From Gammaproteobacteria bacterium (lineage in GTDB: Bacteria; Pseudomonadota; Gammaproteobacteria; GRL18), in assembly GCA_016744375.1 (NCBI GenBank), contig JADGEM010000017.1, positions 1 through 64,000 of the forward strand: 64,000 bases of DNA, read 5' to 3'. The notes beneath the pieces were generated by a model that was not told the DNA's origin, made no database searches, and worked only from the letters and a program-made list of their open reading frames with translations. Numbering within the stretch: the first letter of the stretch is position 1; every line of letters begins with the position of its first letter. Made by a program: the position numbers and the translations under genes. Shown one piece after another: positions 4,424 through 41,862 of the stretch.

Positions 4424-4535
4424 CTCACTTCACTATAAATTATCTACCTTCCCAAGCGATCATTCAGATTTTTTAAATGACTAACACCAGCTGCAAAAAA
4501 CAGCAGCTCAGGAGCGTAGAGTTATGTATTGCAGC

Positions 4536-5470: not shown

Positions 5471-5581
5471 TTTTATTACATCGATATAAGCTTAGCCAGT
5501 CTGTGTTATAAAAACTGGCTAAAATTGTGAGCCTTTTTCCATTTCACCTCTACTTTATATAGCTATCAAGGAAGTGCCACA

Positions 5582-6144: not shown

Positions 6145-6294
6145 TAAATAACTGTTCCTAAATAGTGAAAATTACCTACCGAGAGACCGTATCAGCTTCT
6201 ATTGTTTTTTATTGTGCTCGGACTGCGCCAAATCACACCATAATAAACAATAGAAGCTGATACTCAGTGTGCACTATTTAGGAACAGTTATTTA
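6145..6294 (+). mobile_element. MITE-like element, copy 1
   Basis: The element is 150 bp with perfect 23-bp terminal inverted repeats (6145-6167 and 6272-6294) around the core AACTGTTCCTAAATAGTG. A second, inner perfect inverted repeat of 18 bp pairs 6190-6207 with 6245-6262. It has no coding capacity. A second copy of the same length lies at 45276-45425 in the opposite orientation. The ends read TA-AATAACTG...CAGTTATT-TA, which would fit a TA target duplication as made by IS630/mariner-type transposases, though this is inference. No full-length parent element is in the window. Confidence 0.8.
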
Positions 6295-6365
6295 GGACAA
6301 TTCTGTTTATTAATAGGACAACTTTGTTCATACTCTATTACTTTAATGTCATCTGGAGATAAAAA

Positions 6366-6803: not shown

Positions 6804-6891
6804 TTACCATGCTTTTTCTCCGAGATTGGATTATCATATTTATCTTGACTCTTTTTTATCCCTTAAAAGATTATTAATGAATGGAATAATT

Positions 6892-8067: not shown

Positions 8068-8073
8068 TAAACT

Positions 8074-18662: not shown

Positions 18663-19178
18663 ATGATTACAATGAATGCTCGTTCAAATACCCCCTATAT
18701 ATTAACATTTTTCATTTGCTTCCTTCTCTGGCTCCTATTAACTGGGTCATTTAAAAATGATGAACTGATTGCCGGCATTGTCGTTTCTATAATCGTTTCT
18801 GCTATTAGTTCTAAAAAACTTATGATACTTAATGGTATTATTCTGGCACCCAAAAGTCTGATTGCCTTACTTCGTTATCTGGGTTATTTCCTTGTTGCTC
18901 TGCTTAAAGCGAATCTTGATTTGGCGGGTCGTATTCTCTCCAGAAAAATTCCTATTGAGCCAACAATGATTGAAATTACAACAACAATGGAGTCAGACCT
19001 GGGTAAGCTCCTCCTTGCCAATAGCATCACTTTGACACCGGGCACCCTGACGGTTGATGTTGTTGATGATCGTCTATTGATTCATTGGATTGACTTTCCA
19101 AAAGGGATGAGCCTGACCGAAGCAACACAAACCATTGCCTCTGGCTTTGAAACACGCCTGAAAGGATTTTTAAAATGA
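18663..19178 (+). CDS. mrpE: Mrp/Ehr complex subunit E (MrpE-like)
   Basis: This 171-residue membrane protein has two or three N-terminal helices (LTFFICFLLWLLLTG, IAGIVVSIIVSAISS, LIALLRYLGYFLVALLKANLDLA) and a soluble C-terminal domain with the MrpE signature LLANSITLTPGTLTVDV. MrpE is a small essential subunit of Mrp cation/proton antiporters, and its homologue MbxA begins the archaeal Mbx/Mbh operons. Here it opens a 14-gene operon and its stop overlaps the next start by 4 bp (ATGA), implying translational coupling. In this context it belongs to the ion-translocating arm of a complex I-like enzyme rather than a stand-alone antiporter. Confidence 0.9.
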   Translation: MITMNARSNTPYILTFFICFLLWLLLTGSFKNDELIAGIVVSIIVSAISSKKLMILNGIILAPKSLIALLRYLGYFLVALLKANLDLAGRILSRKIPIEPTMIEITTTMESDLGKLLLANSITLTPGTLTVDVVDDRLLIHWIDFPKGMSLTEATQTIASGFETRLKGFLK

Positions 19179-19585
19179 ATCATAATGCCGAGGATGGTTT
19201 AGTGCAGCTCTTCAATCTGAATATGGGGAGTGGTTTACAGCTCAATTTTCTGGAAATCACAGCTCTGCTCTTAATTGCATTAGCTACCCTGATGGCTCTT
19301 TATCGCTTACTCTTTGGCCCGACTACCCCGGATCGGATCGTCAGTGCCGATGCCTTATCGGTTATTGCAACAGTGATTCTCTGTATAATCGCTGCACTCT
19401 TTCAAAGTGTTTTATATCTGGATGTTGCATTAATCTATGGTGTCCTGTCATTTGTGGGCATTATTGCACTGGCCAGAGCCATTGAGCATCCTTCTGACAG
19501 TAACTTTGAAGGCCATCTTGAAGATAAGAATAATGTTAATGTTAGAAAAAGTGATCCTGGAAGAAATAGCGGAGACCAACCATGA
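19175..19585 (+). CDS. mrpF: Mrp/Ehr complex subunit F (MrpF-like)
   Basis: This 136-residue protein has three helices in the MrpF/PhaF pattern: LLIALATLMALYRLLFGPTTPDRIVSADAL, then VIATVILCIIAALF and a third helix with DVALIYGVLSFVGIIALAR. The GPTxxDRxxxxD motif is the family hallmark. It is longer than most MrpF proteins (about 90), with an N-terminal extension and a hydrophilic tail. It is a structural subunit of the membrane arm. It overlaps mrpE and mrpG by 4 bp each. Confidence 0.9.
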   Translation: MNHNAEDGLVQLFNLNMGSGLQLNFLEITALLLIALATLMALYRLLFGPTTPDRIVSADALSVIATVILCIIAALFQSVLYLDVALIYGVLSFVGIIALARAIEHPSDSNFEGHLEDKNNVNVRKSDPGRNSGDQP

Positions 19586-19932
19586 GATTAGCCGCTGATA
19601 TTTTTCTCCTTGCCGGAGCCGTCTTTATTTTTCTTGGTGCTCTGGGTTTGATTCGAATGCCGGATGTTTATAATCGTATTCAGGCTGGCACCAAAGCCGT
19701 AACTCTGGGTGCAATCGGTGTTTTTCTTGGGCTGGCATTTTTGTTTCCACAATGGTGGCATAAATTGCTGGTCATCATGGGGTTTATTTTATTGACCAAC
19801 CCGGTTAGTTCATCGGCTATTGCAAGAGCCTTTTACGTCTCAAATGTCAGGCCCTGGGTGCATGAAGAAGAGTCTAATAGTGAAGAAAGCTCTAGTCGCC
19901 CATTTAAAGAGAAACAGGAGTTATCACAATGA
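19582..19932 (+). CDS. mrpG: Mrp/Ehr complex subunit G (MrpG-like)
   Basis: This 116-residue, three-helix protein with the MrpG signature GALGLIRMPDVYNRIQAGTKAVTLG has a Glu/Ser-rich cytoplasmic tail. It is a small membrane-arm subunit next to MrpE and MrpF in Mrp antiporters and in Mbh/Mbx (MbxC). Its start overlaps the mrpF stop (ATGA) and its stop overlaps the next start. Confidence 0.9.
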   Translation: MRLAADIFLLAGAVFIFLGALGLIRMPDVYNRIQAGTKAVTLGAIGVFLGLAFLFPQWWHKLLVIMGFILLTNPVSSSAIARAFYVSNVRPWVHEEESNSEESSSRPFKEKQELSQ

Positions 19933-20189
19933 TCTGGATCGTTTCCTTTGTTGTTTTTATTATGCTGGCTTCTGCTCTAGCTGTACTTCTCTTACCAAAT
20001 TTGATTGCGGCCGTGGCGGCATCATCTGTTGTTTCACTGTCTCTTGCCGTGCTGTTTGCCTTGATGAAAGCGCCTGATGTTGCCATGACAGAGGCCGCGA
20101 TTGGCGCCGGACTCAGCAGTTTATTACTGGCAATGGCTTTGAGACGGCTAGGCTTATGGCAGTTGGATAAAGAGCAGGAGTCCAAATAA
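19929..20189 (+). CDS. DUF4040 / MbhD-like membrane subunit
   Basis: This 86-residue, three-helix protein has the DUF4040 signature LMKAPDVAMTEAAIGAG, found either fused in MrpA or as a separate MbhD/MbxD subunit. It corresponds to the NuoJ-like part of complex I. A separate MbhD gene, rather than a fused MrpA, is the arrangement seen in Mbh/Mbx-type complexes. It starts 4 bp inside mrpG; its last base is the first base of the next start codon. Confidence 0.88.
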   Translation: MIWIVSFVVFIMLASALAVLLLPNLIAAVAASSVVSLSLAVLFALMKAPDVAMTEAAIGAGLSSLLLAMALRRLGLWQLDKEQESK

Positions 20190-20911
20190 TGCGTAACATA
20201 AGCAGTTTGCTTTTTTCAGGTGGTCTGGCTTTCCTACTGTTGGTGCTGGCAACACAATTACCCTTTGGTCATACGAGTATGCTCCTGGGAAATGATATTC
20301 TGCAGGCTGCACCGGATGAAGTTGGCACCGGAAATATAGTTGCAGCAGTCCTGCTTGCTTATCGTGGTATTGATACCCTGGGGGAATTAGCTATTTTATT
20401 TACTGCAGCAGCAAGTGTCGGACTGATATTGGGGCAACGGTCAAATCATAGTGCCAAGCGTGACAAAACAATAACCGAGAGTCACTTTATTACCTCCAGG
20501 GCTTCTGATTTAATGATGCCGTTATTAATTATCGTTGGTTTTTATATTATTTTTTATGGTCACTTAACGCCTGGCGGTGGGTTTCAGGGTGGGGTCATTT
20601 TAGCCATTGCTTTTTTCCTTCCTGTTTTAACTCGCCCGGGAACCACTATTGATCATGGCATGATAACAATCATTGAAGGATTAGCCGGTGCTGGATTTAT
20701 TATGATTGGCTTATGGGCCATGTTATATGGCAAACCTTTTTTACAGCCATTTTTTGATACATTTTTAGGTAATGGAATTTTTGGCAGTTTATGGTCAGCA
20801 GGCACTTTGCCGCTCCTGTACCTTGCGGTTGGATTGAAAGTAGGGGCTGAATTGGCAGGTTTATTAGTGACTATCTCGGAAGCTCCAGCAGCGGAGGTAG
20901 AACGCACATGA
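20189..20911 (+). CDS. mrpB: MrpB-like subunit with N-terminal MbhE-like part
   Basis: This is a 240-residue membrane protein. The first about 90 residues (a helix, then EVGTGNIVAAVLLAYRGIDTLGELAILFTAAASVGLIL) match MbhE and the end of MrpA. The second part (MMPLLIIVGFYIIFYGHLTPGGGFQGGVILAIAFFL) is the MrpB/MbhF domain with its YGHxxPGGGFQGG motif. The two units are fused, as in many bacterial versions. It contributes to the sodium/proton path next to the NuoK-like subunit. It overlaps its neighbours by 1 and 4 bp. Confidence 0.9.
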   Translation: MRNISSLLFSGGLAFLLLVLATQLPFGHTSMLLGNDILQAAPDEVGTGNIVAAVLLAYRGIDTLGELAILFTAAASVGLILGQRSNHSAKRDKTITESHFITSRASDLMMPLLIIVGFYIIFYGHLTPGGGFQGGVILAIAFFLPVLTRPGTTIDHGMITIIEGLAGAGFIMIGLWAMLYGKPFLQPFFDTFLGNGIFGSLWSAGTLPLLYLAVGLKVGAELAGLLVTISEAPAAEVERT

Positions 20912-21348
20912 CCATGCCGGGAATTGAAGTTGTTTTTTATACAGGGGCTATTGGCTTGATAGTGATTGGTATGGCCGGTGTATTAATGGTTAAAAATGTG
21001 TTTCGTATGTTACTGGCTCTGGTTTTATTAGAAGCGGGTGCCAGCCTTTTACTGATCTTGTCAGGATTTCGTGAGACAGGTGTTGCCCCTATTCTTTTGT
21101 CAGGACATGCAGCAGGGCAACTTATGAATGATCCTGTGCCGCAGGCACTCGTTTTAACAGCGATTGTTATTGGTGTTGGAATTCAAGCTCTGGCTCTGGC
21201 TCTGATACTCAGAATTAAGCATCGCTATCACAGCCTGGACATGGGTGAAATTCGAGAACAAATGGAGCATGATATTGCTGTAAATTCAGGTGTTGTTTCT
21301 CCTGCCAGTGCACAAAGTCCTGAGCCAGGAGGTCATCACCATGGATAA
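20908..21348 (+). CDS. mrpC: MrpC/NuoK-like subunit
   Basis: This 146-residue, three-helix protein is homologous to NuoK. Glutamates lie in the middle of helix 2 (LLALVLLEAGASLLL), and DPVPQALVLTAIVIGVGIQALALALIL is the family's third helix. In complex I these glutamates form the E-channel linking redox and pumping. A His-rich tail (PGGHHHG) follows. The start overlaps mrpB by 4 bp, and the next gene begins 8 bp before this stop. Confidence 0.92.
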   Translation: MTMPGIEVVFYTGAIGLIVIGMAGVLMVKNVFRMLLALVLLEAGASLLLILSGFRETGVAPILLSGHAAGQLMNDPVPQALVLTAIVIGVGIQALALALILRIKHRYHSLDMGEIREQMEHDIAVNSGVVSPASAQSPEPGGHHHG

Positions 21349-22888
21349 TCTGATCCTGGTTGTTATCCTTCCTCTGTTGGCGGCATTTTTAATGCCAGCT
21401 ATGGCCAGAACCTCAGAAGTGCTGGCTCGTGTCACTGGTCTGATGGTTTTATTTATCTCTATTATTATTATTACCAGTGTTTGGGGTAGTGTGGATGAAC
21501 AAGCAGTATCATATGCTATTGGCGGGTTCCGACCTCCCATGGGTATTGTTTTTTATATTGATCAATTGTCACTGCTTTTTGCATTACTAATACCCGTTAT
21601 GATTCTTTTATTCTGGCCCTGGAACAAAGTAACTCATATACGTGAATATTCCCTGATGATGTTATTAACGGCATCTGCTTCAGGTCTGGTTCTCAGTGGT
21701 GACTTATTTAATATTTATGTGTTCTATGAATTATTAGCTGTTGCATCTTATGGTCTGGTTGTCGCACAGGGGCGCGCCGGGAAAAAAGGTGAGGGGGCAG
21801 CTTTAGCTGCTTCTCTGAGATATTTGATTTTAGGCGCTGTTGGCTCGGTCATGATGCTCATTGGTATTGCCATCATTTATACTCAGGCAGGTACATTAAA
21901 TCTGGCTCACCTTGCTTTACTGGCTCCGGAAAAACTGAACAATATGGCAGGATTATCTGCATTTGCACTGATTTTAATTGGTGTGGGTGTTAAGGCTGAG
22001 TTATTCCCGGTCAATACCTGGGTGCCTGAAGTGTATGGTGCGGTTTCAACTCGATTGTCTGCGCTGATGGCGGGTTTACTATCAAAGTTGGCCGTCATAG
22101 TTATTATTCGCGTATTGGTTTTACTTTTTCCACAACCGGAAGCCCTGCAATTAATGACTATTCTGGGTATGTTAGGTGTGATTAGTGGTGAACTGGTTGC
22201 ATGGCGTTCCAGGGATATGATTCGAATGCTGTCTTTTTCTTCTATCGGTCAGCTGGGGCTGGTTTTTGTCGCATTTTCTATTCCAGGTGATATGGGCTTG
22301 ATGGCTGGATTTGCAGTTGCGCTACATCATTTGCTGGTTAAGCCGGCATTATTTATGTTAGCAAGCGGCTGGACCGGACCATTGGAAAGCTTAAAAGGGG
22401 CTGCAAAACAATCACCTTATATTGCAGCTTTGTTTGTGCTGCTTGTTATGTCTCTGTTAGGTGTTCCGCCATTACCGGGGTTTTGGGCAAAGTTATTAAT
22501 TGTCGTGAATCTGGCATCACAGGCGGCACCGGTCTATCAATTTGCTCTGGCTTTCGTTCTTATTGCGACGGTTATTGAAGCCGCTTATTTATATCGTGTT
22601 GTCATGATTCTTTATCACCCAAACCAGGGACAACAAGCTTCAGTGCGTGAAAAACATAAAGCCTTTGAGTTGGTTATTGCTTCAGGTGCAGCCGTTATTC
22701 TCATCGCTGTTGCCTTGCAGGTGCAGTCAATGGAAACAAAACTCTCTTCCATGGCCCGGCAAACGGGTGACAGGCAGCACTATATCAATACTGTGTTTTC
22801 AAAATTAGATTTAGCTGACATCTATCATCAAAACAAGGTTCAACAAACAGACTTTCGTTCTAACAATCAGCTGCAGGGATCAAAATGA
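21341..22888 (+). CDS. mrpD: MrpD/NuoN-like antiporter subunit (first)
   Basis: This is a 515-residue, about 14-helix antiporter-like subunit. I chose the ATG at 21341 because a perfect AGGAGG lies 9 bases upstream and the protein then starts MDNLILVVILPLLAAF; a longer reading from 21290 would add 17 unlikely residues. Family features are the conserved Glu in helix 5 (NIYVFYELLAVASYGLVV), the key Lys in GVGVKAELFPVNTWVPEVY, and the HHLLVKPALFMLASG lysine. It moves protons or sodium. It corresponds to MbxH, and a second copy follows. Confidence 0.93.
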   Translation: MDNLILVVILPLLAAFLMPAMARTSEVLARVTGLMVLFISIIIITSVWGSVDEQAVSYAIGGFRPPMGIVFYIDQLSLLFALLIPVMILLFWPWNKVTHIREYSLMMLLTASASGLVLSGDLFNIYVFYELLAVASYGLVVAQGRAGKKGEGAALAASLRYLILGAVGSVMMLIGIAIIYTQAGTLNLAHLALLAPEKLNNMAGLSAFALILIGVGVKAELFPVNTWVPEVYGAVSTRLSALMAGLLSKLAVIVIIRVLVLLFPQPEALQLMTILGMLGVISGELVAWRSRDMIRMLSFSSIGQLGLVFVAFSIPGDMGLMAGFAVALHHLLVKPALFMLASGWTGPLESLKGAAKQSPYIAALFVLLVMSLLGVPPLPGFWAKLLIVVNLASQAAPVYQFALAFVLIATVIEAAYLYRVVMILYHPNQGQQASVREKHKAFELVIASGAAVILIAVALQVQSMETKLSSMARQTGDRQHYINTVFSKLDLADIYHQNKVQQTDFRSNNQLQGSK

Positions 22889-24777
22889 GTGTACTAGACG
22901 AAGTCTTTATTTTATGTGCACTGGGTGCTCTTGTCCTATTTGTTTTTCACCGTATACGAGGTATTGAAAAACTGGCTGTCGTATTTTATGCGGCTCTGCT
23001 TTATCTTCTGATAAAAATGTCTGGTCTGGGGTATGGCGGAGAGGTTATTTATTCATCATTTAGTCTCAATATATTGGGTGAAACATTACAATGGCGCTTT
23101 GATGCAGTTTCCTGGTTCTTTGCTATTATTACCGTTGCTTCAGGCCTTTTTTCTGCGGTCTTTATGAGCGGGAAATGGGGTGAATCCTATCGGGAAAAAA
23201 CCTCAAATGCAGCCTATGGGACTTTACAGATTGCATTATTACTCAATGTGAATAGTATGCTGATTTTATTGGCCAGTGGTGATTTGCTGTCATTATTTAT
23301 CGGCTGGGAATTAGTCAGTTGGGCGAGTTTCATGATGATGGCACTTAATCCTGATAAACAGGCTCGACAAGCTGCTATAAAATATATTGTTTATGCCATG
23401 GCTGGTGCAATGGCCTTTCTGGCTGCTATGGCTTATGTTTACGGGATTACAGGTTCACTGCAATATGCTGAGCTGGCCCAGGCTTCCGCTGCTTTGAGTA
23501 ATGGACAGATTATTCTTCTGTCACTTCTGTTTTTTACAGGCTTTGCCATAAAAATGGGCCTGATACCTTTTCATCTCTGGCAGGCTGTTGCTTACGCGGA
23601 AACACCCGCACCGGGCGCTGTTTTTTTAGGAGCAATTTCGGCTCGCATGGGACTCTATGCCATTATCGTTGTTCTGATTCAATTAATTGGACTGGGCCAT
23701 CTGCAGCAAATTCATATTCCATTTACTTTCTGGAACCTGCAAACTGTGCTTGCCTGGGTGGGAGCTCTGACCACTATTATTCCAACCTATATTGCATTAA
23801 AACAAAATGATGCCCGTCACCTTTTGGCCTGGCATGGTGTCGGGCAGGGCGGCTATATGTTATTGGGACTCATGACGCTAAATAGTCTCGGTAGTGCTGG
23901 TGGTTTACTGCATGTTTTTAATTATGCGACCTATCAGGCGGCTCTTTTTATGACTATTGGTGCCGTCATTTATCGAACCGGAACTGCCAATTTTGATAAG
24001 CTGGGCGGTTTAGTGACCCAGATGCCGCTGACCTTTATGGTCATGGTGTTCAGTATTATCGGTCTGGCAGGGCTCCCTCCTATGAATGGTTTTGTTTCCA
24101 AATGGATGGTTTACCGCAGCTTATTACTGGATGGTGAACCCCTGCTATTTGTGGCAGCTGTTATTGGTACTTTAGGAACCATTTTATCTGTTTACAAACT
24201 GGTTCATAATACTTTTCTCGGTCAGCTTCGAGTTGAACATCAGAATGTTCGAGAAGCACCGTTGAGTCTATTGATCCCAATGCTTGTTTTAGCAGCAATT
24301 ATGTTTGTTACAGGTATGATGCCGGGTCTGGTTCTGGACTGGGTTGCTTCGGCTCAGCTGGCAATGGGGCTTGTACCAGTTACTTATAATCTGGGTGGAA
24401 TTGTACTAGCCAGTGGTGGTCTGGATATGATCTGGATTACACTCATTTTATTTTATGGGCTGGGTGTGGGTGCAATTATATTTTATCTGCTGGGCGGTCG
24501 AGCCAAACGAGTTCACCAATATGATAACTATGCGGGAGGGCATTTTCTTACTTCCAGAGTTCGTTATCATTATAGCCATAATTTTTATGCAGGGCTGATG
24601 CACCTGATCGGCGGATGGTATCGGGGCAGCTTTAAAAAATTAGAACAGGCAATTGTTTCGTTGGTGAGCCTGTTGTCACAACTTTCGGAAAATATGTACC
24701 GCTCTGCTCAACCTGCCATGATGGTGATTATCGTTGTGGTGCTCTCTCTCTGGTCTATTTCGGGAGGAATAAATTAA
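22885..24777 (+). CDS. second NuoL/MrpD-like antiporter subunit (MbxH'-like)
   Basis: This is a 630-residue proton- or sodium-channel subunit. Helix 5 has LFIGWELVSWASFMMM with the key Glu, the central segment has AIKMGLIPFHLWQAVAYAETPAPGA with the Lys, and the later half has HLLAWHGVGQGGYMLLGL. The C-terminus extends past the core with helices around 537 and 610. A second, longer antiporter subunit directly after the first is what distinguishes Mbx (H and H') from Mbh, so this complex may translocate more ions per electron pair. It overlaps the previous stop by 4 bp and ends on the base that starts the next gene. Confidence 0.92.
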   Translation: MSVLDEVFILCALGALVLFVFHRIRGIEKLAVVFYAALLYLLIKMSGLGYGGEVIYSSFSLNILGETLQWRFDAVSWFFAIITVASGLFSAVFMSGKWGESYREKTSNAAYGTLQIALLLNVNSMLILLASGDLLSLFIGWELVSWASFMMMALNPDKQARQAAIKYIVYAMAGAMAFLAAMAYVYGITGSLQYAELAQASAALSNGQIILLSLLFFTGFAIKMGLIPFHLWQAVAYAETPAPGAVFLGAISARMGLYAIIVVLIQLIGLGHLQQIHIPFTFWNLQTVLAWVGALTTIIPTYIALKQNDARHLLAWHGVGQGGYMLLGLMTLNSLGSAGGLLHVFNYATYQAALFMTIGAVIYRTGTANFDKLGGLVTQMPLTFMVMVFSIIGLAGLPPMNGFVSKWMVYRSLLLDGEPLLFVAAVIGTLGTILSVYKLVHNTFLGQLRVEHQNVREAPLSLLIPMLVLAAIMFVTGMMPGLVLDWVASAQLAMGLVPVTYNLGGIVLASGGLDMIWITLILFYGLGVGAIIFYLLGGRAKRVHQYDNYAGGHFLTSRVRYHYSHNFYAGLMHLIGGWYRGSFKKLEQAIVSLVSLLSQLSENMYRSAQPAMMVIIVVVLSLWSISGGIN

Positions 24778-25676
24778 TGGCCTCCTTTAACTCAATCAGT
24801 GAACTCCTGGCTCAATTATTATTCATGCCCATGCTGGCCTTTCTTCTTGGTCTGGTCATGGTGCTTATGTATCGTAAAATAGCGGCTCGTTTACAACGTC
24901 GCATTGGGCCCCCATTTTTTCAGCCTGTTTATGATATTGTTAAACTGTACAGCAAGGATACTCAAATATCCCATGGCTTGATCCATGATATCGGGATTGT
25001 TGTTGCCGTTGGCGGTTATGTTGCTGCAGTTATCTTGCTGCCTGTTCCTGGTATGGATGGTATTGCTGATAAGGGCGGTATTATTACCCTGTCTTATTTT
25101 CTTATGATCCCCTCTTTAGGGATGGCTCTGGGCGTTGGACAATGTGCAAATCCCAATGGCTCTATCGGTATTTCCAGAGCACTCACTGCAATGCTGGCGT
25201 ATGATATCCCTTTTATTATTGTCGTGTTTGGTGTGGCCCTGCATTATCAAAGTACTTCTCTTGTGGGTATGATTGACTACCAGCAGGCTCATCAGTGGGG
25301 CATTTTTGAAATGCCCTTATTAGCTGCCGCAGGACTGTTTGCATTACAGGGCATGATGGGTAAGCATCCCTTTGAGATTTATGTTGCACCCGCTGAAATT
25401 GCAACCGGTCCTATGGTTGAAATGAGTGGTAAATTTATGGGAGGACTGTTTGTGATGCAGTCTTTTCAGTTTTATGTTGCCAGTGTTTTATATACATCAC
25501 TATTTTTAGGCGGTGGTGCTAACTGGTTTGAATTTTTACTAAAAATCTTTTTTGTGGTGGAAATTCCCATGAGCATCTCATTCCTGTTTCCTCGCTATCG
25601 TACTGAAGATATGGTGCGCATTATGTGGAAATGGCCGGTGATGCTGGCATTAATCGGCATTGCCTTTGTGATTTAA
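24777..25676 (+). CDS. NuoH-like membrane subunit (MbxM-like)
   Basis: This 299-residue, eight-helix protein belongs to the complex I subunit 1 family. Signatures include RRIGPPFFQPVYDIVKLYSKD near residue 41, the Glu-containing loop GKHPFEIYVAPAEIATGPMVEMSGKFMG, and FVVEIPMSISFLFPRYRTEDM near the end. It anchors the hydrophilic arm, forms part of the quinone or substrate cavity and starts the ion path. The presence of a NuoH homologue joins the Mrp arm to the redox arm that follows. A 46-bp gap separates it from the NuoB-like gene. Confidence 0.93.
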   Translation: MASFNSISELLAQLLFMPMLAFLLGLVMVLMYRKIAARLQRRIGPPFFQPVYDIVKLYSKDTQISHGLIHDIGIVVAVGGYVAAVILLPVPGMDGIADKGGIITLSYFLMIPSLGMALGVGQCANPNGSIGISRALTAMLAYDIPFIIVVFGVALHYQSTSLVGMIDYQQAHQWGIFEMPLLAAAGLFALQGMMGKHPFEIYVAPAEIATGPMVEMSGKFMGGLFVMQSFQFYVASVLYTSLFLGGGANWFEFLLKIFFVVEIPMSISFLFPRYRTEDMVRIMWKWPVMLALIGIAFVI

Positions 25677-25722
25677 GAAAGAGAAAGCTTTAACCTAAAT
25701 AAATTGGTCAAACACTGAGTAA

Positions 25723-26430
25723 ATGATAATGAGTAAACTTGGAAATATTCCTGTTCAGGCGAAGTCAGAAAAAAAACGTACCAATCCTCTGGCGAGAGTG
25801 TTTGATGAGTTGATCCAATTTTGTCAGTCTCGTTCTATGTTTATGCTGCACTATTGTACGGGTTGTGGTGCGATAGAGTTACCTCCGGCCATGACTTCTC
25901 GGTTTGATATGGAGCGTCTGGGCATTCAACCGATGGTGACGCCCCGTCAGGCAGACATTTTGCTGGTGACCGGTTATGTTTCTGTAAAGACTCTGAAAAG
26001 GGTTATTTTGACTTATGAACAAATGCAGTCACCTAAGTATGTGATTGGTATTTGTTCTTGTACCGTAAATGGTGGTATGTACTGGCAAAGTTATGCGACA
26101 GCTAAGGTATTGAATGAATATTTACCCGTTGATGTTTATATTGCCGGTTGTATGCCGCGACCTGAGGCCGTGATCATGGGGTTAAGACGCTTGATGTCAA
26201 ATATTGAGAATGGCAAAGGAAATGCCTGGAAAGATTACTATGAACGATATGATTATTATCTGGGCAATCAGCAGCATCTGTTTGGTGATGACTGGCAAAC
26301 TCCAGTTGATGTGATAGGTGAGGCAAAATTTTATGATCTGGAAGGTGAAGAAACCTATGGTGAGCACACCAGAACTTTAGAGCAGCACCAGGAGCCTTTG
26401 GAGGCTGCGGTAATGAGGGTAAAACTTTAG
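25723..26430 (+). CDS. NuoB-like iron-sulfur subunit (MbxJ-like)
   Basis: This 235-residue soluble subunit holds the proximal [4Fe-4S] cluster. Ligands visible are C45 and C48 in HYCTGCGAIELPP, C111 or C113 in GICSCTV, and C143 in AGCMPRPE. The CxxC spacing and the following Glu match the small subunit of group 4 hydrogenases (MbhJ/MbxJ) rather than the adjacent CC pair of true NuoB. It passes electrons to the active site at the interface with the NuoD-like subunit. A start at 25729 (MSKLG) is equally possible. The C-terminal about 70 residues are acidic and specific to this protein. Confidence 0.9.
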   Translation: MIMSKLGNIPVQAKSEKKRTNPLARVFDELIQFCQSRSMFMLHYCTGCGAIELPPAMTSRFDMERLGIQPMVTPRQADILLVTGYVSVKTLKRVILTYEQMQSPKYVIGICSCTVNGGMYWQSYATAKVLNEYLPVDVYIAGCMPRPEAVIMGLRRLMSNIENGKGNAWKDYYERYDYYLGNQQHLFGDDWQTPVDVIGEAKFYDLEGEETYGEHTRTLEQHQEPLEAAVMRVKL

Positions 26431-26468
26431 TTATATGCTACTAAATTATCAGATGTATTTAGAGATGA

Positions 26469-27044
26469 GTGAATATGAATTGCGATGAAATTAATGTCTG
26501 GCTGGATACCCTGCTAGAAGAAATTAATGAGATAAAAGTAACCCGAAAGAGTGATCGTCGGGTACGTGTGGATGTGGATGCCAGTTCATTACCTGCGTTA
26601 CTTGAATTGCTTAAGGGAAAGGCATCTTATGTTCATCTTTCAGCGATAAGTTGTGTGGACTGGCCAGATGATGAAGAATTTGAGCTGGTCTACCACTGTT
26701 GGTCTTATGAAGCAAAATCTCTTTTATCAGCACATACCCGTATCCCCAGAAATTCTAGTGAAGAGTTTGCCCGTTATGTCTCAGTATATGACATTTATAA
26801 ACCGGCTGGTTTTTTTGAGCGTGATATTTATGAAATGTTCGGGATCTATTTTGAAAGCAGTCCTTTTATGGAAAAGTTTATTCTTACCGAATGGAATGGG
26901 CCACCTCCAATGCGTAAAGATTTTGATGCCGAAGCCTATGTGAATGAAACTTTTAACTGGGCGGAATATAACCCTGACTGGTTACAGGAAATCACCGAAG
27001 AAGGTGGTGGAATTGCAATCAGGCCTGAGGATGTTCGCCTATGA
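26469..27044 (+). CDS. NuoC-like 30-kDa subunit (MbxK-like)
   Basis: This 191-residue soluble subunit of the complex I 30-kDa family carries the signature FFERDIYEMFGIYFE...ILTEWNGPPPMRKDF. It binds beside the NuoD-like subunit and has no cofactor. A GTG start at 26469 is used; an ATG two codons later (26475) is an equal choice. It is separate from NuoD, not fused as in some proteobacterial complex I. Its stop overlaps the next start by 4 bp. Confidence 0.9.
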   Translation: MNMNCDEINVWLDTLLEEINEIKVTRKSDRRVRVDVDASSLPALLELLKGKASYVHLSAISCVDWPDDEEFELVYHCWSYEAKSLLSAHTRIPRNSSEEFARYVSVYDIYKPAGFFERDIYEMFGIYFESSPFMEKFILTEWNGPPPMRKDFDAEAYVNETFNWAEYNPDWLQEITEEGGGIAIRPEDVRL

Positions 27045-28183
27045 GACCGGAAAATTATCAAGCGGTCAGACTGCCGTCCAGTAATGAATATGAAATTTTT
27101 ATCGGGCCCAATCACCCGGGTATTGAAGGTAACTATGCCTTTAAGCTCAGGTTGGATGGTGATGAAGTTATTTCGGGGAAAGCGGATGCAGGTTATCTGC
27201 ATCGTGGTTTTGAAAAATTAATGGAAGGGCGTTTGTGGATACAGAATCTGGCCATTGTTCCCAGGATTTGTGTGCCTGATCCGGTTCCTATGGAAGTGGT
27301 TTACTCCTTATCCGTTGAAGCGATCAGTGATATTGAAGTACCTGAACGCGGTCAATGGATCCGTGTCCTGCAAATGGAGCTGTCGCGTGTTGCATCCCAT
27401 TTATTTACCTTTGGTGGACATGCGGCAACCACTGGAATGTATACTCCAAGTTATTGGGGCGTTGCTGATCGGGATCTGGCTCTTGATTTATTTGAAGAGT
27501 TAACAGGCGGTCGTGTTTATCATATCTATAACATACCCGGTGGTGTACGCCGGGATATTCCTGATGGCTTTCTGGATCGTTTGGGTCATTATCTTGATTA
27601 CCTTGAATCCAGACAAAACGATTACGATAACCTTCTTTTTACCAATCAGGTCTTTGTTAAGCGTGCCCGTGGTATTGGTGTGATTAATAAAGAACAAGCT
27701 CTGGAATGGGGTGTGACTGGACCGAATCTTCGTGCCTGCGGTCTTCCCTTTGATGTGCGCCGTGATGATCCCTATTTGATTTATGATCAATTAGATTTTG
27801 ATATACCGCTTCAGGATGCAGGCGATGCACTGGCGCGAATTTTAGTCAGGCGTGATGAATTATTTCAGAGTGTGCGGATCCTCAGACAAATCATCAAACA
27901 TTTACCCTCAGTCAAAGGGCCGGTTCGAGCGCCTATCCCGAATCCATTAGCCTGGAATGTACCGGCAGGGGAAAGTTATAGTCGAGTAGAATCGTCCAAG
28001 GGTGAACTGGCTTATTATACCGTTTCCGATGGCGGGCCAAAACCTTATCGAGTTCATGTACGAGGGCCTTCCTCTATGCATGCCGTTCAGGTTTTAGAGA
28101 ATGTTGCTGTCGGTGCTCGAATTGAAGATGTGGCCCAAATCATGTTTTCATTAGATGCCTGTCCGCCAGAGGTCGATAGATAA
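27041..28183 (+). CDS. NuoD-like subunit with half of the NiFe cysteine ligands (MbxL-like)
   Basis: This is a 380-residue homologue of the complex I 49-kDa subunit and of group 4 NiFe-hydrogenase large subunits. Core motifs include GPNHPGIEGNY, GYLHRGFEKLMEGR, MELSRVASHL and GPSSMHAVQVLE. Hydrogenases have two CxxC pairs; here the first reads C77-V-P-D80 and the second C374-P-P-E377, so one cysteine of each pair is gone. It therefore cannot bind a normal NiFe centre, but it is not a plain NuoD either. The archaeal Mbx/sulfane-reductase subunit has likewise lost part of the ligand set. The electron acceptor is unknown; quinone, polysulfide or a thiol are candidates. Confidence 0.9.
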   Translation: MRPENYQAVRLPSSNEYEIFIGPNHPGIEGNYAFKLRLDGDEVISGKADAGYLHRGFEKLMEGRLWIQNLAIVPRICVPDPVPMEVVYSLSVEAISDIEVPERGQWIRVLQMELSRVASHLFTFGGHAATTGMYTPSYWGVADRDLALDLFEELTGGRVYHIYNIPGGVRRDIPDGFLDRLGHYLDYLESRQNDYDNLLFTNQVFVKRARGIGVINKEQALEWGVTGPNLRACGLPFDVRRDDPYLIYDQLDFDIPLQDAGDALARILVRRDELFQSVRILRQIIKHLPSVKGPVRAPIPNPLAWNVPAGESYSRVESSKGELAYYTVSDGGPKPYRVHVRGPSSMHAVQVLENVAVGARIEDVAQIMFSLDACPPEVDR

Positions 28184-30057
28184 TGAAAAAAATTAAATAT
28201 GAAGACATCGGCAGCATTTTAAATCCACTTAAAAATTTACAGTTTTTTGCTCGCAAGCCCATTACTGAAGATCTGGAGCCTCGGCCAGCAGCAAAAATCT
28301 ATCGGGGTTTTCATCTCAATGATATGGAAAAGTGTATTGGCTGTAGTACCTGTCAGAAAATTTGTGACAATGCCGCCATTACAATGGTTAAGGTTCCTCA
28401 TTTAAAAGAAGACCCGGTAAATGGCATCAAAAATCTTCGCCCAGCCATTGATTATGGCCGTTGTTGCTGGTGTGCACTCTGTGTTGATATTTGTCCAACG
28501 GGCGCTATTGAATTATCCCGTGAATATGTTCATGTTTGTGATGGTGACGAAGTTGACAGTTATTTTATTTTGCCGCAGGAAAAAGGCATCCATGGAACAG
28601 AACAGGAGAAAGGCTGGACTAAAACCGCGAGCAATGATTTATTAGCCAGAACTCGTACTGACATGGGTGAAATGACACCTGAGGCTCGAGGCGATAATTT
28701 TAAAGAAATTGTTGATGGTTATACCGATGAGCAGGCAATTCTGGAAGCGTCACGTTGTGTACAATGTGGCATGTGTCATGACTCCTGTCCTACTCATATG
28801 CACGCGCCGGAATACATTCGAGCTATCTGGAAAGGCAATGTCGAAGAAGCGGTTGAATGGATGTATGAAACCAATCCTTTTTCTCATGTCTGCGGTCGAG
28901 TGTGTACGCATCGCTGTGAAACTGCCTGCTCTTTAAATCAGACAGGACTTCCACAAGGCAGTGAACCCATTGCCATACGCTGGTTGAAGCGTTATGCCAT
29001 GGATGCTGTTCCACATGAGCGTATTAAAGAAATTGTTGCCAGGAAAAAGTCACAGGAAAAAACGGGCAAAACAATAGCCATTATCGGTGCTGGACCTGCT
29101 GGATTGACTGCCGCTTTTGATTTGGTCAAAAGGGGGCATGATGTGCAGGTGTTCGAAGCATTGCCAAAAGGCGGTGGCATGACCCGTTATGGTATTCCCT
29201 ATTATCGCTTACCCGATGATTCACTGGAACGGGATATTGATGTCATTCAATCCATGGGTGTAAAAATAGAGTATAACACTCGTATTGGTGAGCAAATTTC
29301 CATGGCACAACTGCATACAGATTATGATGCAGTTGTCCTGGCCATTGGTTTGCAGTCAGGCCGTTCGACTCGTATCCCCGGTTCAGAACATAAAGATACC
29401 CGCAGTGCTGTTGAATTATTAAGGTTGATTGGGAACCATGATGGCGATGAGGCTGGTTTTGATATTCCCAGGACAGCTGTTGTCATTGGTGGTGGTAATG
29501 TTGCTATGGATATTGCCCGCAGCCTGGCCCGCTATCAGAAACAACGGTTTAATCAGGTCGAAATTATAGTCACAGCGATTGATGAGCTGGAGAAATTCCC
29601 TGCTGATAAGGAAGAAATTAAAGAATCACTGGAGGAGGGTATCACCATTATTCCATCCCGAGGCCCTCAACAAGTGATGATTGAGAATGACCAGATCAAA
29701 GGTTTAAAAACATGGCATGTTGAATCCGTTTTTGATTCAGATGGCCGTTTTGCCCCTCAATACGATGATTCTGATGAGCAAATCTATCCCGCAGAGATGG
29801 TCATTGAGGCTATTGGTCAGATGGCTGAAACAGAATTACTGGGTAATACTTTGACAGAACAATTGGAATGGGAGCGTGGTCGAATTAAAGTGGCACAGGA
29901 TGGCAGCACCTCAGCCCCCTGGTTATGGTCCGCAGGTGATTGTGTTAATGGCCCTGATGTGGTTCATGCGGTTGCAGATGGTCATCGTGTTGCTGAAAGT
30001 ATACATGCCTGCTTGACAGGCAATAAGGTGAGTGACGGGAAATTAAATGACGAATAA
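28183..30057 (+). CDS. fusion: NuoI-like ferredoxin + GltD/NfnB-like NAD(P)H flavoprotein
   Basis: This is a 624-residue fusion. Residues 1-115 are a NuoI-like ferredoxin with two clusters, CIGCSTCQKIC (51-61) and CCWCALCVDICP (93-104). Residues 165-280 match the cluster-binding N-terminus of GltD/NfnB-type enzymes (CVQCGMCHDSCP; CGRVCTHRCETAC). Residues 293-610 are the flavoprotein with FAD motif GAGPAG, NAD(P)-site motif GGGNVAMD, and the closing SAGDCVNGPDVVHAVADG. The usual Arg pair after the NADP Rossmann motif is absent, so NADH may be used. It could feed electrons from NAD(P)H, or a bifurcated pair, into the Mrp-coupled complex. It overlaps both neighbours. Confidence 0.9.
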   Translation: MKKIKYEDIGSILNPLKNLQFFARKPITEDLEPRPAAKIYRGFHLNDMEKCIGCSTCQKICDNAAITMVKVPHLKEDPVNGIKNLRPAIDYGRCCWCALCVDICPTGAIELSREYVHVCDGDEVDSYFILPQEKGIHGTEQEKGWTKTASNDLLARTRTDMGEMTPEARGDNFKEIVDGYTDEQAILEASRCVQCGMCHDSCPTHMHAPEYIRAIWKGNVEEAVEWMYETNPFSHVCGRVCTHRCETACSLNQTGLPQGSEPIAIRWLKRYAMDAVPHERIKEIVARKKSQEKTGKTIAIIGAGPAGLTAAFDLVKRGHDVQVFEALPKGGGMTRYGIPYYRLPDDSLERDIDVIQSMGVKIEYNTRIGEQISMAQLHTDYDAVVLAIGLQSGRSTRIPGSEHKDTRSAVELLRLIGNHDGDEAGFDIPRTAVVIGGGNVAMDIARSLARYQKQRFNQVEIIVTAIDELEKFPADKEEIKESLEEGITIIPSRGPQQVMIENDQIKGLKTWHVESVFDSDGRFAPQYDDSDEQIYPAEMVIEAIGQMAETELLGNTLTEQLEWERGRIKVAQDGSTSAPWLWSAGDCVNGPDVVHAVADGHRVAESIHACLTGNKVSDGKLNDE

Positions 30058-30556
30058 CAATACAGAAGAATCAGGACTGCAAAAACTGCAGGCTTGTACA
30101 TCATTGAAAGATATTCTTGATCAGGCCACTGACTTTGAACGTACGGCCCGAGATTTTTATGCTGCATTATCCCCCAAAGTCAGCAAGCGGATCCGTTATC
30201 TGGTTGATGAACTGGTCATTGAAGAGCAGGCCCACTATGACCTGTTTAAGGATCTGGCTAATAATCCTGAAATAGAAGCACAGATAAAGCTCGAAATAAC
30301 GACACCACCGGGCAATAAACGATTCTCAGATTGTATTCAATTACCCGATTTGGGAGATAATCCCGATGATCAGACGATCTTGCAATATGCCCTTGGCCGC
30401 GAACAGGCCGCCATGGATCAGTATCATTCTCTGGCTGAAAGTACCCCAGAAGGCCCCCTGAAAGATGTGTTTACTTTCCTTGCTCAGGAAGAAACAGAGC
30501 ATAAAAATGAGCTGGAAAAAATTTACTATGAAGTTGTTCACAGTGGTGGTGTTTGA
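30047..30556 (+). CDS. ferritin-like diiron protein (rubrerythrin-type, no rubredoxin)
   Basis: This 169-residue all-helical protein shows two iron-binding helix pairs: E34 in DFERTARDFY and EEQAHYDLF around 64-72, then GREQAAMDQYH and EETEHKNELE near 147-156. The paired ExxH motifs are those of ferritin-like and rubrerythrin proteins. There is no rubredoxin CxxC domain and no signal peptide. It starts 11 bp before the end of the ferredoxin-flavoprotein gene, so it is translated with the complex. It may scavenge peroxide or oxygen to protect the low-potential clusters, or supply iron; both are inference. Confidence 0.8.
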   Translation: MTNNNTEESGLQKLQACTSLKDILDQATDFERTARDFYAALSPKVSKRIRYLVDELVIEEQAHYDLFKDLANNPEIEAQIKLEITTPPGNKRFSDCIQLPDLGDNPDDQTILQYALGREQAAMDQYHSLAESTPEGPLKDVFTFLAQEETEHKNELEKIYYEVVHSGGV

Positions 30557-30799: not shown

Positions 30800-32025
30800 A
30801 TGAGCAGAATAATGGATCAAGACAAGCTAAAAGCACTAGCCGAAGAACTCGCTAAAGATATCAAGACACCAGAAGACCTGAGCACATTAAGTGCTCAACT
30901 CACCAAGCTGACCGTAGAAGCCGCTCTCAATGCAGAAATGGCCAATCATCTAGGGTACTCAAAACATGATTCAACTGGAAGTAGCACAGGTAATAGCCGT
31001 AATGGTTATTCATCTAAGAAGCTCAAAGGTGATCATGGTGAAATTGAACTCCAGACACCCCGTGATCGGCATTCCAGCTTTGAGCCTCAGCTAGTAAAAA
31101 AAGGCAAACTCGAATTACAGGTATGGATGATCAGATATTAAGCCTCTATGCTAAAGGAATGAGCACCCGAGATATTGTGGCCACTTTTGATGAAATGTAT
31201 GGTGCTGAGATTTCTCCAGGGCTGGTTTCACAAGTCACTAACAGTGTGATGGAACGAGTTGTTGAATGGCAAAACAGACCTCTGGATGCCGTTTATCCTA
31301 TCGTCTATCTTGATTGCATTGTCTTAAAAATTCGCCAGGACAAACGAGTCATCAACAAAGCAATTTATTTGGCTTTGGGTGTTAATCTGGAAGGCCATAA
31401 AGAATTACTAGGGATGTGGATTTCAGAAAATGAAGGGGCTAAGTTCTGGCTGTCTGTCCTCACAGAGCTTCAGAATCGTGGCGTTAAGCACTTCCTCATT
31501 GCCTGTGTTGATGGCTTAACAGGCTTCCCTGATGCCATTAATACAGTCTATCCTGATGCTAAAATTCAACTTTGTATTGTTCACATGGTACGTAATTCAC
31601 TTAAGCTTGTTCCCTGGAAAGATTACAAAGCCGTCACCAAAGATTTAAAGCTAATTTATCAATCTATGACTGAGCAGGAAGCCCATTTGGAACTTGAAAG
31701 GTTTGCTGAAAAATGGGATGAAAAATACCCTCAAATTAGCCGTTCCTGGCAAAAAAACTGGCTAAATCTTATCACTTTATTTGATTATCCTGCAGATATA
31801 CGTAAGGTAATTTACACGACTAATGCCATTGAATCACTCAATAGCGTTATCAGAAAATCAGTTAAAACTCGAAAGTTATTTCCAAGTGATGATGCTGCAT
31901 TGAAGGTAATTTATTTGGCTATCACAGCAGCATCTAAAAAATGGACTATGCCAATTAGGAATTGGAAACCAGCGTTGAATCGTTTTATAATCGAGAATGA
32001 GGAACAGATAGTTCCTCATATGTAA
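30800..32025 (+). pseudogene. IS256-family transposase, frameshifted
   Basis: Two open frames together make one mutator-type transposase of about 410 residues: 30800-31141 (N-terminal DNA-binding part, TPRDRHSSFEPQLVKK) and the frame from about 31102 to 32025 (KRQTRITGMDDQILSLYAKGMSTRDI and the catalytic domain). The switch is at a run of seven A's (31096-31102), where a -1 shift rejoins the frames. Catalytic landmarks are DCIVLKI, the CVDGLTGFPDAI aspartate, CIVHMVRNS and the late Glu in YTTNAIESLNS. IS256 transposases are normally one frame, so this is probably a 1-base mutation; slippage on the A-run could still allow some full-length product. Confidence 0.9.
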
Positions 32026-34084: not shown

Positions 34085-34101
34085 AATGATTATTGAACAA
34101 T

Positions 34102-36009: not shown

Positions 36010-36096
36010 AATGTTAAATGCCTGTTTTTTATTTAGGACAAAGGATTAGTCTTAACAGATATTATATTGTTTCTAAAAATTCTCAACCAATAGTTG

Positions 36097-36952
36097 TCAA
36101 TTATCATCTATTGCCTTCTTTAGCTCAAATAAGATAGGTTGAAAATTATTATTTTTAATCCCTGATTTTTTCAGTAAACTAAAGTGTTCTTCTATAACGG
36201 ATATTCCTTGGCGTCTACTTTTTATGGATTGATGAATAAATCTTTTATAAATTTGTTCTGCTAACAGCTTTTCTTTTTCCGACTTGTAGTAGTAATAGCC
36301 GCTATAATGGTAAATATTAGTGCAATTATAATTAGAGATATTGTTAATAATACTCTTTGACGTCGCTTTTTTATTTCTCTTTGCTTGTCATGCTGTTTTA
36401 AGTCATCATAAGAACAAACCAGAATACCAGCAACAATGCGCAAAAGCTCATCTTTTTTTGTCTCTTTAACAGTTTTGTTTGCTACTGGTCTGACATCTGC
36501 ACCAATAGGCTCACGATCTTTAATCGGTGGATTTGTTTCAGCTTCTTCAAAGTTGATTAACTTATTTGTAGTTAATACTGCAGGAAAAGATTGATCAGGT
36601 TCACCATCAATAAGCAGTGGGAAAATTTTATCGGCACAACCCAGCTCTTTAAATATTTCGATTTCTCTGGAGACCCACTTTGAAAGAGGTGTGTTAGGAG
36701 AACAAATAACAATTAAAAACGTGATGCTGTTAATGCTTCTTCAATTTGATTATTTAAACTACCATCAGAAGGTAGCTCGTCTTTATCACGGAATATTCTA
36801 CCCAAGCGTGCAGGGAATCCAGCTTTTTGCAGCTCTTTAGGAACTCTCTACGTTTCCAGGGAATTAAGTAACCATTTTGCCCATTTTTGAACATGTTCAA
36901 CATGACGATAACTGATAAATGCACTGTAATGATAGTGCTTCTGTTCAGACAT
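36097..36952 (-). pseudogene. TIR-domain membrane protein, decayed
   Basis: Reading leftward from an ATG at 36952 gives MSEQKHYHYSAFISYRH, a TIR domain start, through KWLLNSLET to a TAG where relatives have Tyr (LExYRVPK). The same frame continues with VPKELQKAGFPARLG, then a 1-base deletion in a T-run near 36709 shifts it into LIVICSPNTPLSKWVSREIE, keeping the TIR catalytic-type Glu. Next come a hydrophobic helix (LLTISLIIIALIFTIIAAI) and a third shift near 36290 before a Lys-rich tail ends at a TGA. Three lesions make it a pseudogene. It lies between the STAND and SLOG genes and was part of that system. Confidence 0.85.
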
Positions 36953-37060
36953 TTGAAGCATCTTCCTTGTTATTTATTCTATTGTAATAAACATTAAATG
37001 AGATATATCAATCAGTAAAATTTAGAAACTGGATATCCAATTGAAAAAAATATTTGAGTT

Positions 37061-41842: not shown

Positions 41843-41862
41843 TAAAATATCCCTTGCTTCTA

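Follow-up and report, generated by a model that had tools for sequence, protein, structure and literature searches.

What does a complex assembled from an Mrp-type Na module, two antiporter-like subunits (H and H') and a NuoH-B-C-D-I arm do with its electrons when all of these parts are encoded in one operon? The question is raised by 14 closely packed genes at 18663-30556 (+) of the window, by which we mean the whole stretch analysed, 64,000 nucleotides (nt) of contig JADGEM010000017.1 from a gammaproteobacterial genome (G000; 4.29 Mb, 137 contigs). An earlier note on the sequence had proposed a Mbx/Ehr-type complex with an NAD(P)H module and had called its acceptor unknown. With modest confidence, we lean towards the view that the complex would be an ion-translocating NAD(H):sulfane oxidoreductase of sulfur-storing bacteria, used chiefly in the forward direction. 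The genes and the evidence for their identity are as follows, with lengths in amino acids (aa).

18663..19178, + strand: MrpE/MbsA-like subunit, 171 aa; PF01899 (MNHE), 125 bits
19175..19585, + strand: MrpF/MbsB-like subunit, 136 aa; PF04066 (MrpF), 53.6 bits
19582..19932, + strand: MrpG/MbsC-like subunit, 116 aa; PF03334 (MnhG), 93.5 bits
19929..20189, + strand: MbhD/MbsD-like subunit, 86 aa; PF13244 (MbhD), 66.7 bits
20189..20911, + strand: MbsE-like subunit with an MbhE part and an MrpB part in a single protein, 240 aa; PF04039 (MnhB), 77 bits, and PF20501 (MbhE), 26.3 bits (cut-off 27, narrowly missed)
20908..21348, + strand: MrpC/MbsG-like subunit, 146 aa; PF00420 (Oxidored_q2), 65 bits
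21341..22888, + strand: first antiporter subunit, MbsH-like, about 515 aa from the ATG at 21341; Proton_antipo_M, best PDB chain 6u8y_H
22885..24777, + strand: second antiporter subunit, MbsH'-like, 630 aa; Proton_antipo_M, best PDB chain 6u8y_X; NF006419, 430 bits (below the cut-off, 617)
24777..25676, + strand: NuoH/MbsM-like membrane anchor, 299 aa; NADHdh, best PDB chain 6u8y_M
25723..26430, + strand: NuoB/MbsJ-like subunit with the proposed sulfane-active [4Fe-4S] site, 235 aa; Oxidored_q6, 6u8y_J and motif alignment
26469..27044, + strand: NuoC/MbsK-like subunit, 191 aa, GTG start; PF00329 (Complex1_30kDa), 90.5 bits
27041..28183, + strand: NuoD/MbsL-like subunit, 380 aa; Complex1_49kDa, 6u8y_L and tree
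28183..30057, + strand: NuoI(MbsN)-GltD fusion, 624 aa; Fer4-type domains, Fer4_20 and Pyr_redox_2; NF010590, 802 bits
30047..30556, + strand: ferritin-like (rubrerythrin-type) protein, 169 aa, the fourteenth gene; PF02915, 41.8 bits

The 13 open reading frames (ORFs) that the earlier note reported are all intact and co-directional, with the Pfam identities that it had stated, and by these identities the gene set and order at 18663-30057 is that of MBX/MBS. Because the same order recurs in many relatives, a chance arrangement of genes is excluded. The note was also right that all but two junctions overlap: among the 12 junctions of the 13 genes that it reported, 10 overlap by 1-8 nt (taking 21341 as the start of the first antiporter gene), and only nuoH/nuoB (46 nt) and nuoB/nuoC (38 nt) are separated by a gap. 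For that antiporter gene, the ATG at 21341, which stands behind an AGGAGG, is most likely the start, in preference to the GTG at 21290. The operon does not end at 30057, as had been proposed; it continues into the ferritin-like gene, which overlaps the fusion gene by 11 nt.

We compared six subunits (NuoB, NuoD, both antiporters, NuoH and the NuoI part of the fusion) with all PDB sequences. For 6/6, the best solved relative of its kind was the MBS of P. furiosus (6U8Y). The NuoD-like subunit scored 404 bits with 6u8y_L (MbsL), as compared with 261 for Nqo4 and 122 for MbhL, and the NuoB-like subunit scored 221 bits with 6u8y_J (MbsJ; next 113). The first antiporter, with a query started at 21335, two codons 5' of the ATG, scored 198.8 bits with 6u8y_H (MbsH; next 148.1), the second 211 bits with 6u8y_X (MbsH'; next 138.7), the NuoH-like subunit 179.8 bits with 6u8y_M (MbsM; next 61.9) and the NuoI part 72.8 bits with 6u8y_N (MbsN; next among NuoI-type chains, 45). 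Relatives of the complex fall into two types, which we call type A (the window's type) and type B (a divergent type). We built a NuoD tree (LG+C20) of 23 rows, in which archaeal MBX and MbhL are represented by a single sequence each, and Thermotoga and the other Ehr complexes by none. In this tree, MbsL groups with the window and 16 relatives at a support of 100/99. It sits on a long branch within that group, and its join with type B is weak (84/76). The NuoD sequences of T. thermophilus, E. coli and the host genome lie outside the group (88/81 among themselves), as do MbhL and HycE (100/99). The earlier note had held that subunits branching within true complex I or within active group 4 hydrogenases would speak against its reading; the NuoD-like subunit joins MbsL, outside both. 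The name Mbx-type is retained; "Ehr" is an umbrella name only.

The likeness to MBS extends to the thirteen-subunit set, the MbsE with MbhE and MrpB parts, the two antiporters, the Mrp module and the NuoHBCDI arm. The group 4 [NiFe] hydrogenases belong to the same superfamily, and Mbh has an Mrp-type arm too. However, the window's NuoD lacks two of the four NiFe cysteines: C77 and C374, the equivalents of the MbsL C85/C385 pair, are kept, and D80 and E377 replace the other two. Given this loss and the separate branch in the tree (100/99), we rejected an active group 4 [NiFe] hydrogenase.

The locus might also be read as a second complex I, that is, an NADH:quinone reductase with another input module and a Na+ arm. 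In favour of this, the NuoD-like subunit scores 436 where the cut-off of PRK06075 is 360, and the NuoB-like subunit 185 where that of PRK06411 is 116; because both pass these broad complex I models, annotation pipelines would label the genes nuo on NCBIfam alone. However, the positions of Nqo4 His38 and Tyr87, which we take to hold the quinone, are E29 and V78 in the window's NuoD (printed alignment), and the tandem cysteines of complex I NuoB are absent, with CTGC in place of the SCC/ACC of E. coli and of the host's own NuoB. We rejected complex I identity on these positions and the NuoD tree. The operon also contains no NuoE/F/G, and canonical complex I genes occur elsewhere in the genome, with nuoA to nuoK together on contig C31 (nuoL-N were left out of the search), so the MBX-type complex is not the host's only complex I-like enzyme. 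We consider a second complex I highly improbable. A third, weak NuoD match in the host genome (contig C61, 20 bits) contains an internal stop.

The site at which electrons would leave the complex can be compared with that of MBS in some detail. Passages of PMC7684303 place sulfane reduction by MBS at the proximal [4Fe-4S] cluster, for which just three cysteines serve as ligands (MbsJ C28, C93 and C123), and describe MbsJ C25 and MbsL C85/C385 as dispensable. The window's NuoB aligns to MbsJ without gaps at the cluster motifs; C48, C113 and C143 correspond to all three ligands, and C45 to the non-ligand C25. A three-cysteine proximal cluster is thus predicted for the window's NuoB at the level of sequence only. 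The three ligand cysteines are also kept in 6/6 type B and 6/6 further type A NuoB sequences that we aligned. Type B has Gly at the position of MbsJ C25 in 6/6 NuoB rows and Tyr at that of MbsL C385 in 6/6 NuoD rows, so that only the first cysteine of the pair (C85) is kept. Because the three ligands stay while the dispensable cysteines vary, the two lineages agree on the residues that are needed, and the natural loss in type B of cysteines that MBS can spare would be evolutionary support for the three-cysteine cluster mechanism. Within type A, CTGC is present in 59/65 NuoB ORFs of named loci, the other 6 being partial ORFs that end short of the motif, and RICVPDP and LDACPPEVDR are both present in 70/72 NuoD ORFs; RICVPDP is missing from the remaining 2.

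The donor side is where the complex departs from MBS. The earlier note had described the last of its 13 genes as a NuoI-like ferredoxin; the NuoI part is present, but the protein is not a ferredoxin alone. Its NuoI-like part, with a pair of [4Fe-4S] clusters, is followed by an Fe-S flavoprotein like NfnB, DsrL and GltD (Fer4_20, FAD and nucleotide domains), with sites for flavin adenine dinucleotide (FAD) and a nucleotide. The best NCBIfam match, PRK13984 (NF010590), covers nearly the full length, with 802 bits under a curated cut-off of 946; the type B fusion of locus L034 passes this cut-off with 999 bits. Against PRK12771, the window's fusion scores 384.6 bits, under the cut-off of 516. A structure model of the fusion was set aside because its NuoI part had a predicted local distance difference test score (pLDDT) below 50.

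The cofactor of the flavoprotein may be predicted from a short motif. E. coli GltD, an NADPH enzyme, has YRR, while PreT (annotated NAD+) has ARE. At this place the window has AID, and YRR occurs in 0/70 readable fusions (of 80 fusion loci). In passages of PMC7596348, YRR binds the NADP phosphate in NfnB and DsrL and marks the NADP(H) DsrL enzymes, whereas the DsrL forms that lack it have a preference or a requirement for NAD(H). We therefore predict that the cofactor of the fusion is probably NAD(H). The Mbx-type complex with an NAD(P)H module is thus upheld by the NuoD tree and the fusion, with the cofactor probably narrowed to NAD(H). Unlike NfnB, DsrL and GltD, the window's flavoprotein is fused behind NuoI, and it has neither YRR nor an NfnA-type partner. 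With no NfnA-type gene in the operon (Pfam) and no YRR in the readable fusions, a bifurcating transhydrogenase of the Nfn kind was rejected.

Three other loci show further arrangements of such flavoproteins. In L118 (a Thiomargarita record; 635-4168), a second GltD-like gene (565 aa, 29% identity over 429 aa) follows the fusion and replaces the ferritin-like gene. In L019 (15822-17999), a 725-aa flavoprotein of the PRK12771 type that ends in a ferredoxin-like stretch, a DsrL-like layout, lies one gene from the operon of genome G038. In L038 (genome G327; 4481-8314), a type A relative from another class of the phylum (NuoD 69%), the NuoI-GltD gene is split over two frames, which suggests a broken gene or an assembly error; no ferritin-like gene was found in the 4.4 kb behind this split fusion.

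The ion-pumping arm was examined by mapping coupling residues from printed alignments to MbsH, MbsH' and MbsM. For MbsH, E138, K250 and K393 are kept and E219 is replaced by Lys. For MbsH', E128, K217, H336 and K399 are kept and K248 is replaced by Arg, and for MbsM, E203 and E211 are kept and D196 is replaced by Glu. Judged from these residues, the arm appears mostly suited to pumping, with some change near the coupling end.

Which organisms carry the complex bears on its likely substrate. We scanned named genomes for the best 80 of at least 539 relatives. Carriers among these 80 include lucinid symbionts (Thiodiazotropha), tubeworm symbionts, Thiolapillus, Sedimenticola, Lamprocystis, Thiocapsa, Thiohalocapsa, Parasulfuritortus, a Gallionellaceae bacterium, a Hyphomicrobiales bacterium, Thiomargarita, Parabeggiatoa and many unnamed gammaproteobacteria. 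Lamprocystis purpurea DSM 4197 and Parasulfuritortus cantonensis LSR1, both cultured, are among the named records that have the fusion together with NuoD. Most of the named groups are sulfur oxidisers; going by the record titles, we take beta- and alphaproteobacteria to be among them.

We then looked for dsrA (TIGR02064, E <= 1e-60, which does not tell oxidative from reductive Dsr) in genomes drawn evenly over families, a design in which shared ancestry counts for less but still has some effect. In a draw of 274 genomes from the class, 92 have dsrA and 13 have an MBX-type NuoD (E <= 1e-90). All 13 of these carriers have dsrA (13/13 vs 92/274, hypergeometric p 4e-7), as do 11/11 when the window's genus is removed (p 3e-6). 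In a draw of 398 genomes from the phylum, 53 have dsrA and 6 have the fusion (E <= 1e-150), and dsrA is present in 6/6 carriers (p 4e-6), one of which is the window's genome while the other five belong to another class. In a set of 40 relatives, dsrA is present in 15/16 carriers and in 9/24 others (p 3e-4), and it is present in 35 of 40 named-locus genomes hand-picked from the 80 for spread. This co-occurrence suggests a job in handling stored sulfur. Together with the three-cysteine NuoB site, it also allows sulfane or polysulfide to be proposed as the acceptor that the earlier note had left blank. The same note's view that such a complex is unusual in gammaproteobacteria was overstated, given the many lineages of sulfur oxidisers, the 13/274 genomes of the class and a Mrp-Mbx complex already named in the Riftia symbiont. 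RuBisCO was found in 12/18 carriers including the host genome, in 11/13 of the class draw and in 1/5 of those from the other class. Calvin-cycle autotrophy was therefore rejected as the common trait of carriers.

As a control, nifH is present in 25/274 genomes of the class and in 3/13 carriers (p 0.10), so it is not clearly enriched and lends no support to a link with nitrogenase. This result bears on an alternative in which the complex is a Rnf-like ferredoxin:NAD+ oxidoreductase, with ferredoxin docking at the NuoI part and feeding the reductive tricarboxylic acid cycle (rTCA) or nitrogenase, and with the NuoB site vestigial. MBS accepts ferredoxin at MbsN according to a passage of PMC7684303, and a passage of PMC11636981 reports co-expression with rTCA in the Riftia symbiont. 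In the window, clusters of the NuoI type are present and are fused to an NAD(H)-type flavoprotein. The retention of three ligands alongside the loss of spare cysteines would be unexpected for a vestigial site. With this and the nifH result, we regard this alternative as improbable.

The link to dsrA could also mean that the complex acts on something other than inorganic polysulfide, its S-S substrate being a trisulfide or persulfide that belongs to the Dsr pathway, on either a protein or a small molecule, e.g., DsrC trisulfide or glutathione persulfide. Passages of PMC7684303 report that MBS acts on dimethyl trisulfide, which fits such a substrate, and describe its active site as a hydrophobic pocket, which a protein would find hard to reach. 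We give this possibility little credence.

Returning to an NAD(H):sulfane oxidoreductase, we propose the following mechanism. The ferredoxin-docking subunit of MBS would have turned into the NuoI-GltD fusion, which would exchange electrons with NAD(H). Electrons would pass from NADH to the FAD of the GltD domain, to its [4Fe-4S] clusters, to the two NuoI-type clusters and on to the proximal cluster of NuoB, whose free iron would bind polysulfide or another sulfane and split the S-S bond. Coupling through NuoH would power the Mrp Na+/H+ module along with the two antiporter-like subunits, which would act as proton pumps. The main use would be the reduction by NADH of internal sulfur (globules or polysulfide) once oxygen or nitrate is exhausted. 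With assumed redox potentials, electron transfer from NADH to polysulfide yields 6-23 kJ per 2 e-, as compared with 42-54 from ferredoxin. Because this driving force is small, reversibility is expected: near balance, the enzyme may run forwards at low membrane potential (anoxia, with stored sulfur as acceptor) and backwards at high potential.

The forward mode is favoured by three observations from the literature. Beggiatoaceae are described as respiring stored sulfur in anoxia (PMC4959497), and mbxA mRNA of T. maritima as rising 4.36-fold upon sulfur addition (PMC9431562). In passages of PMC11636981, the Mbx of the Riftia symbiont has its network neighbours with rTCA, like the hydrogenase, sulfur-globule and Soe genes, and is not grouped with the Calvin cycle, where most sulfide-oxidation genes belong.

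The same enzyme might instead work mainly in reverse, with the H+/Na+ gradient driving electrons from sulfide or persulfide to NAD+, independently of quinone, and yielding polysulfide and NADH. The small driving force with NAD(H) fits this direction, since a full membrane potential would reverse any complex that moves at least 1 ion per 2 e-. So does the tie to sulfur oxidation, with dsrA in 13/13 and RuBisCO in 11/13 of the class-draw carriers, and so does the bias of DsrL, a relative of the GltD part, towards NAD+ reduction in A. vinosum (a passage of PMC7596348). On the other hand, 4/5 carriers of the other class have no RuBisCO match, and canonical complex I is already available for reverse transport. 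We hold a mainly reversed enzyme to be unlikely, though clearly worth weighing. It is also conceivable, if doubtful, that the enzyme switches with the energy state of the cell, running backwards in light, oxygen or nitrate to charge the sulfur store and make NADH, and forwards in anoxia to conserve energy, with a dedicated ferritin-like protein that would guard the labile cluster or supply it with iron.

It is important to set out the points that weigh against a forward-running NAD(H):sulfane oxidoreductase. To our knowledge, no activity is known for any bacterial member. The driving force from NADH pays for about 0.3-1.6 ions, which is little for a two-pump machine. In the ion arm, MbsH H330 aligns with Val, and MbsM E104 and E193 are replaced by Met and His. 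Most aligned type A NuoB rows have an extra cysteine, C111 (missing in L113), which could be a fourth ligand of the cluster. The association with dsrA is also imperfect. One of the 16 carrier relatives (G009) and five of the 40 hand-picked genomes show no dsrA, perhaps because their assemblies are incomplete, and 79/92 dsrA genomes of the class draw lack the complex. The fusion also occurs in the control genome of T. maritima, where dsrA is missing, so not every carrier shows the link. The dsrA p values are uncorrected for phylogeny, and they cover oxidative and reductive Dsr alike. Finally, clustering of 431 ORFs flanking the 14 genes gave only lineage-specific sets, with few clusters named and no recurrent partner.

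The ferritin-like gene nearly always accompanies the fusion. Among the 80 named fusion loci, 72 have more than 650 nt behind the fusion and are testable for the gene, which was found in 71/72, within 400 nt of the fusion in 70 (a tblastn repeat gave the same numbers). The presumed diiron ligands E31, E60, H63, E119, E149 and H152 are conserved at 0.99-1.00 in 76 sequences. A structure model had a mean pLDDT of 77, and a fold search with it gave no match at E <= 0.001; the best was 1vjx, a ferritin-like protein of T. maritima, at 3.8e-3. According to a passage of PMC7684303, the MBS cluster loses its free iron when oxidised and regains it from ferrous iron; the activity of MBS is likewise lost with ferricyanide and returns with ferrous iron. 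By this analogy, the ferritin-like protein would probably protect a labile cluster or donate iron to it.

The gene also stays with the fusion where the rest of the operon does not. Eight of the 80 loci (L110, L112, L114-L119), in records titled Thiomargarita, Parabeggiatoa, Venteria or Thiotrichaceae, have no NuoD, NuoB or NuoC beside the fusion in the 0.6 to 10 kb available upstream. Seven of them, all except L118, keep the ferritin-like gene paired with the fusion. An MBX-type NuoD was found elsewhere in 6/7 of the genomes searched (that of L116 was outside the search); the genome of L119 has no NuoD match and has an MBX-type NuoH 7 kb from the fusion.

In type B, both antiporters are fused into one protein of 1043-1057 aa, whose N half resembles PRK08377 and whose C half resembles PRK08668, the best models of the window's two separate antiporters. 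Some genomes of the window's genus have type A and others type B. Compared with the window, the NuoD of the divergent complex in loci of the genus (L021, L022, L023 and L024) is 46-48% identical, while the ferritin-like gene beside it, where complete, is 82-84% identical. Across type A and type B carriers of the genus (five compared), the ferritin-like gene is 78-84% identical to the window's, and the three type B fusions are 54.5-56% identical to that of the window. A type B fusion of the genus is 69-70% identical to type B from another class of the phylum. The high identity of the ferritin-like gene and the low identity of the fusion fit an exchange of a cassette of about 11 kb. To judge from these identities, types A and B seem to have replaced each other within the genus beside a kept ferritin-like gene, whose product would then serve both types of complex.

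How much of this was already known? The MBX kind is known, a gammaproteobacterial member is in print, and the fusion is known as an NCBI family and in T. maritima. MBS itself differs from the window's complex in that the MbsN counterpart here is fused to a GltD-type NAD(H) flavoprotein and an extra ferritin-like gene is present; the hosts here are mesophilic proteobacteria, and that of MBS is an anaerobic hyperthermophilic archaeon. T. maritima has a PRK13984-type fusion over the cut-off, and passages of PMC9431562 describe its MBX as a sulfur-induced unit of 13 subunits in a fermenting anaerobe, with ferredoxin as the assumed donor. A "putative Mrp-Mbx complex" was named in 2024 in Candidatus Endoriftia, the Riftia symbiont, with its function and direction listed as unknown, in passages of PMC11636981 that make no mention of an NAD module, ferritin or a dsr link. 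Tubeworm-symbiont records (L072, L080, L084 and L091) carry the present operon type with the fusion and the ferritin-like gene. In the literature searched, which did not extend to subscription journals and preprints, PMC11636981 alone names Mbx in a sulfur oxidiser; the relevant passage of PMC10373932 mentions MBX solely to exclude it for one isolate. Within the same scope, we did not find the co-occurrence with dsr, the ferritin-like partner, the NAD prediction, the two types or the evolutionary test of the cysteines.

In the literature, MBS serves as a link that connects hydrogenases with complex I, and the biochemical and structural work on it that we cite comes from one hyperthermophilic archaeon. 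If our reading is true, there would be a mesophilic, NAD(H)-coupled branch of MBS in tubeworm and clam symbionts and in purple and giant sulfur bacteria, and a candidate enzyme for the old observation that stored sulfur is reduced to sulfide without oxygen. Possibly, NADH could also be made from sulfide without the quinone pool. If the enzyme switches direction, it would be a missing enzyme of stored-sulfur respiration and would offer reverse electron transport a second and cheaper route.

Around the operon, a divergent 2-oxoglutarate dehydrogenase E1 gene lies 427 nt upstream, followed by its E2 gene (sucA/sucB, Pfam). Searches found no Rfam match at the gathering threshold and no relatives on viral contigs, and a promoter scan gave 33 matches where 29 were expected. 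Directly downstream of the ferritin-like gene, at 30800-32025 (+), is a Mutator-family (IS256-like) transposase in two overlapping frames (113 + 300 aa), which looks like a frameshifted or split element. The region at 32357-43371 encodes a TrkA-N and RyR-domain protein, a protein that matches YspA-SLOG below the threshold, a 1593-aa nSTAND1-TPR protein and a SIR2-TIR protein. It is a possible conflict island; only the SIR2-TIR protein has PADLOC matches, which are weak and to its TIR end. At 759-3340, a gene for an ankyrin-repeat protein with Kelch-type matches is followed by an "Immunity protein 22" (DUF4284) gene, and at 44059-45240 (-) there is a gene for a 393-aa protein that matches multihaem cytochromes (MtrC/F-like, cytochrome c7 and c3).

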